Below, piece by piece: positions 3,237 through 9,323 of a DNA stretch of 41,844 bases. The notes beneath the pieces were generated by a model. That model saw only the letters and a program-made list of their open reading frames with translations. It had not been told where the DNA came from and did no database searches. Source of the stretch: an uncultured Eubacteriales bacterium (GTDB lineage: Bacteria > Bacillota > Clostridia > Lachnospirales > Lachnospiraceae); contig CASEML010000090.1 of the NCBI GenBank assembly GCA_949289145.1, positions 1 through 41,844 of the forward strand. The letters run 5' to 3'. Each line of letters starts with the position of its first letter. The first letter of the stretch is position 1. A program made the translations under genes and the position numbers.

Positions 3237-4568
3237 ATGGAAGAAAATGTGATAAAGCGAGTACAGCCTCACAGTATTGAAGCAGAGCAATCGGTAATCG
3301 GTGCCATGCTTATGGACAAAGAAGCTATCATAGTAGCTTCCGAAATGCTTCATGGAGATGAGTTTTATGCAAGACAGCATGGAGTCTTATTTGATGCTAT
3401 GGTGGAATTATATAATGAAGGTAAGCCGGTGGACTTGATCACATTACAAAACCGATTAAGGGAAAAGGATGTGCCTCCGGAAATTAGCAGTCTGGAATTT
3501 GTAAAGGACTTGCTGGATGTGGTTCCAACTTCCGCTAATGTAAAGCATTATGCCACTATCGTGGCAGAAAAGGCATTGCTGCGCAAATTAATACGAACCA
3601 ATGAAGAAATTGCAAATGCCTGCTATTTGGGCAAAGATAAGGTAGAAACCATATTAGAAGAAACGGAAAAGAGAATTTTTGAATTGGTTCAGTCTAGAAA
3701 TTCCGGTGATTATGTTCCAATCCGACAGGTAGTAATCAATGCTTTGGAAAAAATCGAAGCATCTGCAAAGACAAAAGGAAATGTAACAGGTCTTTCCACT
3801 GGTTTTCTGGATTTAGATTATAAAACGGCAGGGATGCAGCCTTCCGACTTTATTCTGGTGGCGGCTCGTCCTTCTATGGGAAAGACGGCTTTTGTGTTAA
3901 ATATTGCAGAGCACATGGCATTTAAAGAGAGTAAATGTGTGGCTATTTTCAGTTTGGAAATGTCAAAGGAGCAGTTAGTAAACCGTCTGTTCTCTCTGGA
4001 ATCCAGAGTGGATGCACAGCAGTTGCGTACCGGTGATCTGAAGGATAGTGACTGGGAAAAGTTAATTGAAAGTGCCAATGTAATTGGAAAATCAAAACTG
4101 ATCATTGACGATACCCCGTCTATTTCTATCTCTGAAATGCGCTCTAAATGCCGTAAATTTAAGTTAGAGCATGGACTTGATATTGTTATTATTGACTATT
4201 TACAGTTAATGTCAGGAAGTGGCAGAAGCGACAGCAGACAGCAGGAAATTTCTGACATTTCCCGTTCCCTGAAAGCAATGGCAAGGGAGCTGAACGTACC
4301 TGTCATTGCATTGTCCCAGTTAAGCCGCGCAGTAGAACAGCGTCCGGACCATCGCCCAATGTTGTCTGATCTTCGAGAATCAGGGGCCATAGAGCAGGAT
4401 GCGGACGTAGTAATGTTTATTTATCGAGATGATTATTATAATAAAGATTCCGACAATAAAAATATTGCGGAGATTATTATAGCGAAGCAGAGAAATGGCC
4501 CAATCGGAACTGTAAATTTGGTATGGCTGCCAATGTATACAAAGTTTGCTAATATGGAGAAGAATTAG
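3237..4568 (+). CDS. dnaB: Replicative DNA helicase DnaB
   Basis: Hexameric 5'-3' helicase that unwinds the replication fork and recruits primase. The N-terminal domain (about 1-110) and linker are followed by the RecA-like C-terminal ATPase with Walker A RPSMGKTA (K216) and Walker B IVIIDYLQLM. The LSRAVEQR and DLRESGAIEQDADVV segments are diagnostic. The length of 443 residues is normal and no intein is present. AGGAGG about 8 bases upstream fixes the ATG start. It follows rplI across a hairpin. Its loader candidates (DnaI-like and DnaD-like) are encoded at 26.8-28.9 kb. Confidence 0.98.
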   Translation: MEENVIKRVQPHSIEAEQSVIGAMLMDKEAIIVASEMLHGDEFYARQHGVLFDAMVELYNEGKPVDLITLQNRLREKDVPPEISSLEFVKDLLDVVPTSANVKHYATIVAEKALLRKLIRTNEEIANACYLGKDKVETILEETEKRIFELVQSRNSGDYVPIRQVVINALEKIEASAKTKGNVTGLSTGFLDLDYKTAGMQPSDFILVAARPSMGKTAFVLNIAEHMAFKESKCVAIFSLEMSKEQLVNRLFSLESRVDAQQLRTGDLKDSDWEKLIESANVIGKSKLIIDDTPSISISEMRSKCRKFKLEHGLDIVIIDYLQLMSGSGRSDSRQQEISDISRSLKAMARELNVPVIALSQLSRAVEQRPDHRPMLSDLRESGAIEQDADVVMFIYRDDYYNKDSDNKNIAEIIIAKQRNGPIGTVNLVWLPMYTKFANMEKN

Positions 4569-4770
4569 TATCGGCTATGAGCGTCTTTTGAACCAATAAG
4601 TTTAAAATATTACATTTCAACAAAACTTTTATATTTATTACATTTTCCACCTACACAATTCCCCTTACTTTTCAAAAAAGATATGGTATATTTTAGGGGA
4701 TAAAACATATACATATATTTTAATACCATCGGAGGCTTCGAAAGATCAAAGAAAGAAAGGCGGATAGCGT
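4569..4770. other. Intergenic region between dnaB and the MerR-type gene
   Basis: An AT-rich gap of 202 bases. It holds a possible extended -10 (TGG-TATATT, 4684-4692) without a convincing -35. A dyad, ATGGTAT at 4683-4689 and ATACCAT at 4723-4729, brackets that candidate and could be an operator. GGAGG at 4730-4734 lies too far from the start at 4771 to serve it; AAAGGCGG around 4756-4763 is the likely ribosome site. Confidence 0.35.
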
Positions 4771-5469
4771 ATGCAGGAAATGAGATACATGATTTCGGAT
4801 ACAGCGAAGAAAGTAGAAGTGGAAGCACATGTACTAAGATACTGGGAAGAAGAATTAAGCCTGAACATTGCAAGGAATGAAATGGGCCATAGATATTATA
4901 CTGCTAAAGATATACAGGTTTTCCTTAATATTAAGAAGCTAAAGGAGCAGGGATTTCAGCTGAAAACTATTAAAATGGTCCTTCCTGAGTTAGAAAACGA
5001 AAATGTAGATAATATTATAAAGCGACAGGAAGAATTGAACAGAGAGGCGGAAAACGCTTTCTACAGCTATCATCAAAGTCCGGTTCCTTACCAGCCGGCA
5101 CAGCCTCAGCCGGTGCAGCCTCAGCCGGTGCAGCAGGCGGCGGTTTCCAATATGGATGATAAAATGCAGCAATTTCAAATGATTTTAGGTAACATTGTGG
5201 CACAGGCAATACAGAATAACAATGAAAGTTTAAGCAAAAATATTGGCGATAACGTAAGCGAGCGTGTGTTAAAACAGATCAACTGCGTTGCAAAAGAGCA
5301 GGAGGAAAGAGAAGAGGAACGTTTTAAAAAGTTGGACGAGTCTATCCGTAATGCTCAGCAGGGAAGGAGAGATGGGGTAAAAGAAAAGCCTCAGGAAGAA
5401 CATAAAAAGAAAGAAAAAAGAAAGTTCTTTGCTAAGAAAAAGAAAATAGTAGGGGAAAGCCCGGCATAA
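4771..5469 (+). CDS. MerR-type HTH protein with Pro/Gln linker, coiled coil and basic tail
   Basis: The N-terminal domain (about 1-75) is a MerR-like winged helix (ISDTAKKVEVEAHVLRYWEEE, then GHRYYTAKDI). It is followed by a Pro/Gln-rich linker made partly of a duplicated 15-base unit, a probable coiled coil (about 130-190) and a Lys-rich C-terminal tail. No ligand-binding domain of classic MerR regulators is visible. The architecture recalls RacA-like chromosome-anchoring proteins, but I cannot assign that role. It may be a transcription factor or a nucleoid-associated protein. It stands alone, ending at a bidirectional hairpin shared with the convergent ferredoxin gene. Domain call is firm, function open. 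Confidence 0.8.
   Translation: MQEMRYMISDTAKKVEVEAHVLRYWEEELSLNIARNEMGHRYYTAKDIQVFLNIKKLKEQGFQLKTIKMVLPELENENVDNIIKRQEELNREAENAFYSYHQSPVPYQPAQPQPVQPQPVQQAAVSNMDDKMQQFQMILGNIVAQAIQNNNESLSKNIGDNVSERVLKQINCVAKEQEEREEERFKKLDESIRNAQQGRRDGVKEKPQEEHKKKEKRKFFAKKKKIVGESPA
5101..5130 (+). repeat. Two perfect 15-bp tandem repeats coding for the Pro/Gln linker
   Basis: CAGCCTCAGCCGGTG occurs at 5101-5115 and again at 5116-5130, encoding QPQPV twice within the linker of the MerR-type protein. It is clearly more GC-rich than the surrounding gene. Confidence 0.9.
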
Positions 5470-5548: not shown

Positions 5549-5719
5549 TTAACCTTCAGAAATAGCACCTGTAGGGCATGTTCCAGCACAAGCTCCACAG
5601 CTGATGCATTTATCAGCATCAATTTCGAATTTTCCATCTCCTTCAGAGATAGCTCCTACTGGGCAAGCACCTGCGCAAGCACCACAAGAAACACATGAAT
5701 CTGAAATAACAAATGCCAT
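5549..5719 (-). CDS. 2[4Fe-4S] clostridial-type ferredoxin
   Basis: A 56-residue protein, with two repeats of the CxxCxxCxxxCP cluster motif: C9, C12, C15, C19-P20 and C38, C41, C44, C48-P49. All eight cysteines are intact and the length is right for small bacterial ferredoxins. It carries low-potential electrons between soluble enzymes. AAGGAGG lies 8 bases upstream of the ATG at 5719. It is encoded just downstream of pflA on the same strand but about 115 bases away, with AT-rich sequence that could hold its own promoter. A role as electron donor to the radical-SAM activase PflA is plausible but inferred only from position. Confidence 0.95.
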   Translation of the reverse strand: MAFVISDSCVSCGACAGACPVGAISEGDGKFEIDADKCISCGACAGTCPTGAISEG

Positions 5720-5835: not shown

Positions 5836-6591
5836 TTAGGAATTTTCGCTTCTGCGCTGCTTAATTCCATTAATAATAAACTTCTTTAATTCAACAGCCT
5901 TGTCCTTATCCATTGCAGGGGTATCCTTTAGTGGATACTCCTTGCCAAGCTTTTCATACTTTGGTTTTCCCATAGTATGATATGGAAGCACATCTAATGC
6001 CTTCAAGTTAGAAAGACCACCAATAAAGTAACCAAGCTTAAATAAGTATTCTTCCTCATCTGTAATGCCAGGTACAACTACGTGGCGAATCCAAAGGTTT
6101 ACGTTTTTTGTTGCAGTGTATTCTGCAAACTTAAGAATTTGGTCGTTAGGTTGGGAAGTGAGCTTTTTATGCTTTTCAGGATCTATATGTTTAATATCCA
6201 GCATAATTAAATCGGTAACTTCCATAAGCTTATCCAGTTTTGCAATAAAATCCGCATTATTTTCATTATATGCAATGCCGGAAGTGTCCAGACAGGTATG
6301 AATATTTTTCGCTTTCGCTTTTTGAAAAAGTTCTGTTACAAAATCAATCTGCATCAACGGTTCTCCTCCGGTAACAGTAATACCTCCACCGTTTTTATAG
6401 AACATTTCATTTCTTTTGTAAGCATCTAAAATTTCATCGGTATCCATCTGATTGCCTGTATTCATTTCCCAAGTGTCTGGATTATGGCAGTAAAGACAGC
6501 GCATAGGGCAGCCCTGAACGAATACTACAAAACGTACTCCAGGACCGTCAACGGTACCAAAACTTTCTGTAGAATGAACATATCCCTTCAT
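5836..6591 (-). CDS. pflA: Pyruvate formate-lyase activating enzyme (radical SAM)
   Basis: Radical S-adenosylmethionine enzyme that abstracts hydrogen from the conserved glycine of pyruvate formate-lyase to make the glycyl radical. The [4Fe-4S] motif CxxxCxxC is present (C28, C32, C35 in GCPMRCLYCHNPD), as is the GGEP-type SAM motif TGGEPLMQ. The length of 251 residues is typical. AAAGGAG a few bases upstream supports the ATG at 6591. The gene lies downstream of the split pyruvate formate-lyase genes on the same strand but is separated by an intrinsic terminator, so it depends on read-through or its own promoter. Its target glycine is on the separate 80-residue subunit encoded at 6683-6925. 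Confidence 0.97.
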   Translation of the reverse strand: MKGYVHSTESFGTVDGPGVRFVVFVQGCPMRCLYCHNPDTWEMNTGNQMDTDEILDAYKRNEMFYKNGGGITVTGGEPLMQIDFVTELFQKAKAKNIHTCLDTSGIAYNENNADFIAKLDKLMEVTDLIMLDIKHIDPEKHKKLTSQPNDQILKFAEYTATKNVNLWIRHVVVPGITDEEEYLFKLGYFIGGLSNLKALDVLPYHTMGKPKYEKLGKEYPLKDTPAMDKDKAVELKKFIINGIKQRRSENS

Positions 6592-6628: not shown

Positions 6629-6654
6629 AAAAAAGGACCTCATTTCTGAGGCCC
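6629..6654 (-). terminator. Intrinsic terminator after the glycyl-radical subunit gene
   Basis: On the minus strand, stem GGGCCTCA / TGAGGTCC with loop GAAA (6635-6654) is followed by six T residues (6629-6634). This is a strong textbook terminator separating the pfl genes from pflA. Confidence 0.9.
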
Positions 6655-6682
6655 TTTTCATATAGTAAAATTACGAATGCTA

Positions 6683-6925
6683 TTAGATGCTTTCGTGGAA
6701 TGTACGTGAAATAACGTCAGCCTGTTGTTCTGGAGTTAACTTAACAAAGTTTACAGCATATCCAGATACACGGATTGTTAACTGTGGATATTTTTCTGGA
6801 TGTGCCTGAGCATCTAATAATGTATCTCTGTTTAATACATTAACATTTAAATGGTGTCCACCTTTTGTTGCGTAACCATCTAATAATGATACTAAGTTAT
6901 CTACCTGTGCCTGATTTGCAGCCAT
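6683..6925 (-). CDS. grcA: Separate glycyl-radical subunit of pyruvate formate-lyase (GrcA/YfiD-like)
   Basis: An 80-residue protein that matches only the C-terminal end of normal pyruvate formate-lyase. It has the segment [15 protein letters not shown], then [17 protein letters not shown], in which Gly55 (RVSGY) is the predicted radical site. It matches the radical domain of E. coli PflB and the spare-part protein YfiD/GrcA. I prefer ATG 6925 because AAGGAGG sits 8 bases upstream; ATG 6955 overlaps the previous stop but would place that ribosome site inside the gene. The upstream core enzyme lacks this domain, so here the subunit is probably obligatory rather than a repair spare. It ends at a strong terminator. 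Confidence 0.92.
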
Positions 6926-6954
6926 TATAATTTCCTCCTTATTCAATAATAACA

Positions 6955-7158
6955 TTATTTTGTTAATTCTTCATCAATACCTTCGTGCAGGGTAGGAACC
7001 TGACAAGCCAGATTCCCTTTTGCACAATCAATACAGCCTAAGGTTTCCACCGATTTTTCACCGGAATCACCATTGACCTCTATATTCATGTGTCCTACAC
7101 CTTTTGACATTGAGCCATCTAACATAGCAACAATATCATCAATTCTTTTATCGTCCAT
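6955..7158 (-). CDS. Small Cys-containing paralogue of the glycyl-radical domain, function unknown
   Basis: A 67-residue protein encoded between the pyruvate formate-lyase core and the radical subunit. Residues 6-28 ([20 protein letters not shown] and on) align with the start of the radical subunit, with about 10 of 23 positions identical by eye, notably DG, K-G and H-x-N. The radical loop is absent. Instead the C-terminal half carries C42, C45 and C52 in a CxxC-x6-C pattern, followed by an acidic tail. An AAGGTG ribosome site lies upstream. Its stop codon overlaps a possible ATG of the next gene. It may bind a metal, sense redox state, or occupy the radical-domain site of the core. These are inferences; I do not recognise a named family. 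Confidence 0.8.
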
Positions 7159-7177
7159 TTAAATCAACACCTTACAA

Positions 7178-9217
7178 TTAGTTGTTTAAGTCGATTTCAA
7201 TATCACCAGCAAATACTTGATCTTCTTTACCAAGAGCTCCAGGAATAATTGTAAAGGTATTTGAAATACCATCCTGAGCTTCCATGAATGGAAGTTTAGC
7301 AACTGAAGATAAGGAAGCTACAGCACCATGAGTATCGCGTCCGTGAAGTGGATTAGCACCTGGAGCAAATGGCTGTCCTTTCTTTCTTCCGTCTGGTGTA
7401 TTACCTGTTGCTTTACCATAAGTAACGTTAGAAGTAATTGTTAATACAGAACATGTTGGGAAACTGTCTCTGTATGTGTACTGCTGTCTTAAGAATCCCA
7501 TGAATGTAGAAAGTACTTTCTGAGCAAGTTCATCTACACGGTCATCATCGTTACCGTATTTAGGGAAATCACCTTCTACTTCGTAATCAACAACAATGCC
7601 GTCCTCATCTCTGATAGCTTTTACTTTTGCATATTTAATGGCAGATAAGGAGTCAGCTACTACAGAAAGACCAGCAATACCTGTTGCAAAGTAGCGACGT
7701 ACATGTGCGTCATGTAAAGCCATCTGTAATCTTTCATAGCAGTATTTGTCATGCATGTAATGGATAATATTTAATGCGTTGGCATAAACACCTGTTAACC
7801 ATTTCATCATATCTGTGTATTTAGCCCAAACATCATCAAAGTCTAAGTAGTCACCTTCTACTGGACGATACTTAGGACCAACCTGTTTCTTGGATACTTC
7901 ATCTACACCGCCGTTAATAGCGTATAATAAGCATTTTGCAAGGTTTGCTCTAGCTCCGAAGAACTGCATTTCTTTACCAACACGCATGGAAGATACACAA
8001 CAAGCGATAGCGTAGTCATCACCGTGTGTTACTCTCATTAAGTCGTCATTTTCGTACTGGATAGATGAAGAAATGATGGACATCTTAGCACAGTATTTCT
8101 TCCAAGCAAGTGGTAATCTTGTAGACCAGAGAACTGTCAAGTTTGGTTCCGGAGCAGCACCTAAGTTTTCTAAAGTATGTAAGTAACGGAATGACATCTT
8201 TGTTACCAATGGACGTCCATCGATACCTACACCACCAAGAGATTCTGTAACCCATACTGGATCACCAGCAAAAATGCTGTTGTATTCAGGTGTACGAGCA
8301 AACTTAACACAACGTAATTTCATAATAAAGTGGTCAACAAATTCCTGAATCTGTTCTTCAGTAAATGTTCCGTTCTTTAAGTCTCTCTGAGCATATACAT
8401 CTAAGAAGGTAGAAGTACGTCCCAGTGACATAGCTGCACCGTTCTGTTCCTTAACTGCTGCCAAGTATCCGAAGTATACAGCCTGAATAGCTTCCTGTAC
8501 GTTTGAAGCCGGCTTAGAAATATCACAGCCATAGATTTCAGCTAACTTAGCGAGCTCTTTTAAAGCTTTGATCTGTTCTGAATATTCTTCACGGTCACGA
8601 ATTACTTCAGGAGTCATGACTTCAGGAGTTCCAGCTTTCTGAGCTTCTTTGTCTTCGATAAGACGGTCAACACCATACAAAGCTACACGACGGTAGTCAC
8701 CAATGATACGTCCACGTCCGTAAGCATCTGGAAGACCTGTAATAACATGGCTTGAACGGCAAGCTCTCATTTCTGGTGTGTAAGCATCAAATACACCGGC
8801 ATTGTGTGTTTTTCTGTGTGTTGTGAAGAATTCAACAATTTCCGGATCTACTTCATATCCATTATCTTCACAAGCTTTCATAGCCATACGAATACCACCG
8901 TAAGGCTGCATAGAACGCTTAAAAGGCTTATCTGTCTGGAAACCAACGATGGTTTCTTTGCTCTTGTCTAAGTAGCCAGCACCGTGAGATGTAATAGTAG
9001 ATACAACCTTTGTATCCATATCAAGAACGCCGCCAGCTTCACGTTCTTTCTTAGTTAAATCCATTACCATATCCCATAAGTCTTTTGTGTTCTGTGTAGG
9101 TCCTGCTAAGAAAGATTCATCTCCTTCATAAACTTCATAGTTTTTCTGGATAAAATCTCTTACGTTAACTTCTTTTTCCCAAGCTCCACCTACAAAATCT
9201 TTCCATTCTGGTCTCAT
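7178..9217 (-). CDS. pflB: Pyruvate formate-lyase core subunit lacking the glycyl-radical domain
   Basis: Formate C-acetyltransferase converts pyruvate and CoA to acetyl-CoA and formate. The protein of 679 residues has the active-site cysteine pair C406-C407 (YAIACCVSS) and family blocks throughout, such as [12 protein letters not shown] and the [16 protein letters not shown] region. It ends after [23 protein letters not shown], exactly where full-length enzymes (about 740-760 residues) continue into the radical domain. That domain is supplied by the separate gene at 6683-6925. A 67-residue Cys protein is encoded between them, 19 bases after this stop. AGGAGG upstream of ATG 9217 and a near-consensus promoter at 9295-9323 support high expression. 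This is not a frameshift: each piece has its own start and ribosome site. Confidence 0.95.
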
Positions 9218-9294: not shown

Positions 9295-9323
9295 ATTATA
9301 AGATAATCATTTCCCCACGTCAA
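9295..9323 (-). promoter_or_regulatory. Sigma-70-type promoter of the pfl genes
   Basis: On the minus strand, TTGACG (9318-9323), a 17-base spacer and TATAAT (9295-9300). The leader to the pflB start is about 75 bases and contains an imperfect AAGTACC/GGTACCTT hairpin (9255-9280). Confidence 0.85.

Follow-up and report, generated by a model that had tools for sequence, protein, structure and literature searches.

Pyruvate formate-lyase (PFL) provides fermenting anaerobes with a main way of turning pyruvate into acetyl-CoA and formate. Oxygen destroys the enzyme, as the chain is cut at the glycyl radical. The closest described systems are those of E. coli, namely PflB (formate C-acetyltransferase 1; structures 1h16 and 2pfl) and the free radical domain YfiD/GrcA (6owr), which repairs the damaged product of an intact gene. 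According to PMC8683613, YfiD can serve tPFL, a truncated PFL (residues 1-695), in trans, and the pair is fully active once activated; YfiD binds oxygen-cleaved PFL at 14 uM, whereas its binding to PFL 1-695 is too weak to be detected by ITC, and the truncated protein gains 32-fold less radical than oxygen-cleaved PFL. In the same study, residues 696-733 are the recognition element, whose loss explains both the weak binding and the low radical gain. The excerpts of PMC11528403 and PMC13252398 describe no split PFL.

Here we compare these systems with a locus in the window (the whole stretch of 41,844 nucleotides that was analysed, from a Lachnospiraceae genome), where a core, a middle ORF, a glycyl-radical subunit and pflA are arranged head to tail on the minus strand (Table 1). 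As in tPFL with YfiD, a free radical domain would serve a truncated PFL in trans, and tPFL is in this sense a man-made likeness of a natural split.

A PFL core and its radical domain on separate chains

Profile searches placed the core among PFLs, with 1077 bits to TIGR01255 (cut-off 994.2) over positions 2-665 of 744 and 718 bits to PF02901. Like E. coli PflB, it keeps the adjacent catalytic cysteines of the barrel (C406-C407), is grouped in an operon with pflA and is homologous to the E. coli enzyme from residue 10 to residue 681, whereas residues 680-758, the radical domain, are absent from the chain and covered by a separate small protein; therefore, the break falls on the domain boundary. 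This small protein supplies TIGR01255 positions 663-744 and passes the cut-off of NF038360 (GrcA3; 158 bits). Its 80 residues are counted from the ATG behind AAGGAGG, and the ORF is open ten residues earlier, from 6955, so that the glycine of RVSGYAV is residue 65 of the 90-aa ORF and Gly55 of the 80-aa protein. As a member of the GrcA/YfiD family itself (TIGR04365) it falls short, with 101.7 against a cut-off of 170 bits, and unlike YfiD it lacks the 60-residue disordered arm. The activase also passes its family model, as PflA scores 302.8 bits to the PFL-activating-enzyme model (cut-off 231.75).

Split cores differ from PflB in two further ways, an extra FxGDLxxD-like end and a third element with cysteines that is described below. 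The FxGDLxxDL-like stretch (7178-7215 in the window) ends 43 of the 44 split cores of our family sample and those of 80/80 named relatives; it is not seen at the corresponding place in full-length PFLs, and it is also missing in two split cores of another family (L218 and L219).

The first-pass annotation had read the locus as a natural split rather than a frameshift, with a 679-residue core that keeps C406-C407 and lacks the radical domain, a separate 80-residue protein with RVSGYAV and Gly55 two genes on, and a ribosome site for each piece. All of this stood: the TIGR01255 match stops at 665 of 744, the small protein proved to be one already modelled at NCBI as GrcA3, ribosome-site-like sequences precede all four genes (the weakest at the 67-aa ORF), and the same order of core and GrcA3 recurs in 44/44 split loci of the family sample. 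Since the order recurs in this way, chance arrangement and sequencing error are ruled out as sources of the split.

Table 1. Coordinates of the features discussed; positions are those of the window, except in the last row, which refers to another contig of the same genome.
Feature	Position	Strand	Description
PFL core (pflB without radical domain)	7178-9217	minus	679 aa, TIGR01255, PF02901
Middle ORF	6955-7158	minus	67 aa, radical-domain-like N-terminus and Cys motif, no Pfam family
GrcA3 glycyl-radical subunit	6683-6925	minus	80 aa, NF038360 161.3 bits, PF01228 84.5 bits
Intrinsic terminator between GrcA3 and pflA	6630-6659	minus	13-bp stem and U-run
pflA, radical SAM activase	5836-6591	minus	251 aa, TIGR02493
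2x[4Fe-4S] ferredoxin-like small protein, downstream of pflA	5549-5719	minus	56 aa, PF00037 in two stretches
Promoter-like site TTGACG-17-TATAAT upstream of core	9295-9323	minus	11/12 matches
Second GrcA3 of the source genome, L079 (G000:C64)	5165-5404, with 4381-5061 and 6630-8912		Crp/Fnr regulator upstream

The terminator behind GrcA3 in the window is well supported (z -5.6; 0/200 shuffles fold equally well). Using a home-made scan without shuffled control, we found a terminator after GrcA3 in 66/79 named relatives examined, and 0/79 had one in either gap beside the middle ORF (towards the core or towards GrcA3); applied to the wider sample, the same scan placed one behind GrcA3 in 12/27 loci with a middle ORF and in 4/17 others. 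As terminators follow GrcA3 and none separates the three genes, core, middle gene and GrcA3 probably share one transcript, and pflA lies behind the terminator. The region as a whole holds fewer promoter-like sites than its shuffles (10 vs 14.1), which makes the site upstream of the core weak evidence. Judging from its position, the ferredoxin-like gene may be linked to PFL, and its product is a possible electron donor to PflA. Similar ORFs of 55-56 aa were seen after pflA in many of the fetched split loci, an uncounted observation.

Distribution and history of the split form

The source genome has 2.93 Mb on 170 contigs and is 88% complete. A profile search of its contigs returned one PF02901 match, the window core, which agrees with the earlier proposal that the split form is the only PFL of this genome; a role of the GrcA/YfiD type, the repair of a full-length PFL in the same genome, finds no partner here, as the sole match in this 88% complete assembly is the split core. 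No one-chain pyruvate:ferredoxin oxidoreductase scored over the cut-off in this genome; the three weaker matches, all on one contig, have the look of an enzyme with several subunits. A further Gly_radical match, a 712-aa frame on contig 121, is presumably a class III ribonucleotide reductase.

A survey of Lachnospiraceae for the same gene order, also proposed in the first-pass annotation, showed that the split is common. Of 120 family genomes, each from a different genus and counted from the matches listed, 103 match TIGR01255: 44 have a split core and 48 a full-length PFL, including two with both (G085 and G119); contig ends interrupt four more (in G034, which is among these, a radical domain is still attached to core sequence), and nine have distant relatives only. 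Thus, 42/44 split genomes have no full-length PFL. In all 44 split loci (43 fetched plus the window) GrcA3 lies directly downstream, with a length of 75-84 aa and a gap of 0-492 bases. Core, middle ORF and GrcA3 are found together in 80/80 named relatives, such as Parablautia muri and P. intestinalis, which are the best 80 of 582, near by construction and overlapping the family sample. In the phylum sample, 48/159 genomes match and the complete genes listed are all full length except that of the window's genome, with G146 broken by contig ends; in the class sample, 61/118 match, and split loci occur in five genomes of other families (G327, G354, G379, G381 and G382) and in one further Lachnospiraceae (G361), with GrcA3 downstream in 6/6. 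Therefore, the split PFL is widespread in Lachnospiraceae, occurs in some other families of the class and is not unique to the source genome.

Free GrcA3 is strictly coupled to split cores in the genomes surveyed. It was found above the NF038360 cut-off in 0/47 searched genomes with full-length PFL only, and neither GrcA3 nor a middle ORF was found downstream of full-length PFL genes in the 30 loci with about 1.5 kb of flank. Two weaker GrcA3-like small frames were seen in full-length-only genomes, G038 (85 aa, 74 bits) and G067 (94 aa, 65 bits). The NCBI name of GrcA3 implies an autonomous cofactor, whereas here it is coupled to split cores, and it sits in the core operon with no intact form found, unlike YfiD. 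As 42/44 split genomes are without full-length PFL and none of the 47 full-length-only genomes has a free GrcA3, GrcA3 in Lachnospiraceae appears from sequence to be a subunit and not a spare part of the E. coli type. Core and GrcA3 are both under purifying selection, with median dN/dS of 0.059 (1416 pairs) and 0.078 (1127 pairs), values from pairs that are not independent.

The history of the split was followed with trees made by a quick method (LG+G4), in which some long rows were flagged and the chosen outgroup was not one side of a branch. In a tree of 73 cores, a single clade (98*) unites the split rows with four full-length rows, and no more than three changes of state between split and full length are needed; with 46 rows added from other families and outgroups (119 cores), 49 split rows and the same four full-length rows stay in the clade (99*), again with three changes. 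The radical domains of these four nested proteins score 151.5-161.9 bits to the GrcA3 model, and those of other full-length proteins score at most 141. One of the four, L017 (also L190, 3724-6024, in G096), has LFVNDTPDVTCGCEEVTCAVDAN where the core meets the radical domain, with the cysteine linker CGCEEVTC; it has the appearance of GrcA3 attached to a core with a cysteine tail, a probable re-fusion. In the other three the linkers are short and plain, and for them re-fusion is argued from the tree and the scores.

Most simply, and as the tree favours, the history consists of one split and two re-fusions. The opposite view, of repeated independent splits with the four nested proteins as ancestral forms, could draw on the quick trees with their open forks and on change counts that do not separate gain from loss; we hold it to be unlikely, as three changes are enough on both trees, and the high GrcA3 scores of the nested radical domains and the cysteine linker of L017 speak against it. 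A tree in which 43 split rows were grouped to the exclusion of the four full-length ones was rejected (p-AU 0.0026, for a group named after the tree was seen), an outcome compatible with either history. The five split cores of other families (L218 in G382; L219-L222 in G327, G354, G381 and G379) fall inside the Lachnospiraceae clade, which suggests that the split PFL was transferred out of Lachnospiraceae.

The cysteine element as a gene or a core tail

The 67-aa ORF, which the first-pass annotation had touched only through its gene count, is a conserved gene without a family model of its own. Where the ends of split loci are readable, a cysteine element is present in 49/50, as a free middle ORF in 30 (55-89 aa as a separate chain) and as a tail of the core in 19; L073 has neither. 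Aligning 27 middle proteins of the family sample, we found that they share an MLDxxMxxGxGHxN start and a C-x(n)-AC-xx-P motif, the latter in 25/27 (L044 and L050 lack its second half) and also in 80/80 named relatives. The core tails, for example DCKDLACNIPN, DCACCEPN and DCDNGACSSPT, have an invariant first cysteine in 16/16 aligned and a second one in at least 90%, and the tail of L058 is without AC-xx-P.

The start of the middle protein is related to GrcA3. Its N-terminal 31 columns are homologous to those of the radical subunit (hhalign 95.5%, E 1.3e-8), and 24/27 middle proteins match the GrcA3 model weakly, far below the cut-off. As a GrcA3 member the window's middle protein fails, with 18.5 vs 158 bits over residues 2-28 only, and the alignment of 27 holds no SGY radical loop. 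Pfam searches gave these proteins no real family (PF01228 in 2/27, best E 0.01). The tails have no radical-domain-like half; therefore, this half is not always needed.

Two PDB entries may bear on the tailed form. The entries 38la (687 residues) and 38lb (739 residues), both named 'Formate acetyltransferase' and with four chains each, are PFL cores in which no radical domain can be recognised. After the core, 38lb continues as VMFGECDMCEMKELDDV, which resembles a cysteine tail (last 34 residues excluded), and 38la may be an engineered truncation. Neither is among the rows listed for a PDB set that runs up to 2026-04-08, and both were probably released later. A literature search found no paper for them and, among the papers listed, none on the middle protein, the alternation between gene and tail, the cysteine-linker re-fusion or the regulator-linked GrcA3; in the PDB we found no chain of the middle protein. 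Given these entries, the split PFL itself may be known to specialists.

Possible exchange of the radical subunit and rival readings

A second free GrcA3 is present in 8/44 split genomes. In four of the eight (G000, G042, G112 and G080) the next same-strand gene upstream encodes a Crp/Fnr regulator, at about 580 bases in G080 and closer in the others, and in each of these genomes this regulator is the best HTH_Crp_2 match, among one to three over the cut-off. In the source genome (G000), the second GrcA3 is followed by an exporter gene and then by flavodiiron-like, flavin reductase-rubredoxin and rubrerythrin genes. Three of the remaining copies have no regulator recognised by eye nearby. The copy of G097 (L196, G097:C33, 95-1105) consists of GrcA3 and then pflA at a contig start, apart from the main split locus, and may represent another pfl operon or a duplicate made in assembly. 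The source genome also contains a short GrcA3-like fragment (G000:C56, 13543-13647; E 3.8e-4), seemingly a remnant, which covers 35 positions and has one in-frame TGA. As the second GrcA3 adjoins a Crp/Fnr regulator in 4/8 and oxygen-defence genes in the source genome, exchange of GrcA3 after oxygen damage is favoured, as we infer.

The anatomy of the locus, its conservation, the operon-like grouping and the coupling of free GrcA3 to split cores are direct observations. From our analysis, the whole is likely to be a pyruvate formate-lyase of two subunits, with a third element dedicated to it. By homology with E. coli PFL and YfiD, the core would hold the barrel and the C406-C407 thiyl pair, and GrcA3 would give the strand, the radical loop and Gly55 in trans; PflA would install the radical on the core-GrcA3 complex, and after cleavage of GrcA3 by oxygen a fresh 80-aa subunit would replace it, instead of the whole enzyme. 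The cysteine element, as a separate protein or as a core tail, would be a functional part of this split form. Considering that E. coli PFL 1-695 binds the spare part poorly (PMC8683613), a simple swap is disfavoured and the natural split enzyme probably needs something more. The element is a candidate for the missing recognition element, because it is encoded between core and GrcA3, is present in 49/50 loci and in its free form is half a copied radical-domain start. In our preferred reading it would do the job of residues 696-733 of oxygen-cleaved E. coli PFL, holding or guarding the empty site and helping GrcA3 to dock, with its cysteine pair as a putative redox switch or metal ligand.

We also propose, tentatively and with less confidence than the two-subunit enzyme, a more complete picture in which the trans-acting cysteine protein, derived in part from a copied radical domain, would be an obligatory factor of assembly and redox gating that enables exchange of the radical subunit. 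The element would have moved between gene and core tail, the enzyme would have been re-fused at least twice, once leaving the cysteine linker, and the Crp/Fnr-linked reserve GrcA3 would supply replacements under oxygen stress.

Other readings of the middle protein and of GrcA3 have to be weighed. The middle protein might be a plug or inhibitor, its start filling the empty GrcA3 site and its thiols shielding or quenching the active site, until GrcA3 displaces it once oxygen is gone. The homology of its N-terminal 30 residues to GrcA3, with the glycyl loop replaced by a cysteine segment, and the likely common transcript with the core would suit such a competitor, but in 19/50 loci the element is a short tail on the core that lacks the GrcA3-like half and could not compete in the same way, and AlphaFold2 left the middle protein undocked on the core (pLDDT about 30), in a setting where the matched control gave only a partial placement of the known radical loop (64-81) and none of its N-terminal half. 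We therefore regard a plug as rather unlikely. Similarly doubtful is a mainly metal-related or docking role, in which the element would bind a metal or Fe-S cluster, or dock PflA or the nearby ferredoxin, and the radical would be installed only in reduced cells. Two to three cysteines in each of the 16 family-sample tails, the conserved pair in 25/27 middle proteins and the ferredoxin-like gene after pflA are consistent with it, as is the fact that a disulfide between the element and GrcA3 is unlikely, since 1/44 GrcA3 proteins has a cysteine; on the other hand, cysteine number and spacing vary (CxxC, CC, CxCC, Cx4AC), and profile searches found no metal-binding family match for the middle proteins.

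If the middle protein were a leftover of the duplication behind the split, now decaying and retained merely because it couples translation, its half-resemblance to GrcA3, its variable length and motif and the lack of any element in L073 would be accounted for. This is very unlikely when set against the median dN/dS of 0.113 of the middle gene (198/198 usable pairs below 0.5, pairs not independent), the motif in 80/80 named relatives and the cysteine tail that substitutes wherever the middle ORF is missing, except in L073. Least probable of all, to a degree that we nearly discard it, is that the work falls to another PFL, with GrcA3 as no more than a YfiD-like spare: the NCBI name and the similarity to YfiD (6owr) point that way, but the source genome has its single PF02901 match and 42/44 split genomes are without full-length PFL.

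Returning to the two-subunit enzyme with its cysteine element, annotation pipelines label the core as a normal formate C-acetyltransferase and have no model for the middle gene; therefore, heterologous expression of core and pflA alone would be expected to fail. The artificial tPFL-YfiD pair of E. coli would gain a natural system for comparison, and through the cysteine element one could test directly how a radical domain that comes as a separate chain is recognised, which the E. coli study did not settle (PMC8683613).

In conclusion, the split PFL with its cysteine-rich piece in many gut Lachnospiraceae suggests an enzyme built for replacement of its oxygen-sensitive part. If true, keeping the fragile part as a separate 9-kDa subunit would be a natural answer to oxygen cleavage in abundant gut bacteria.
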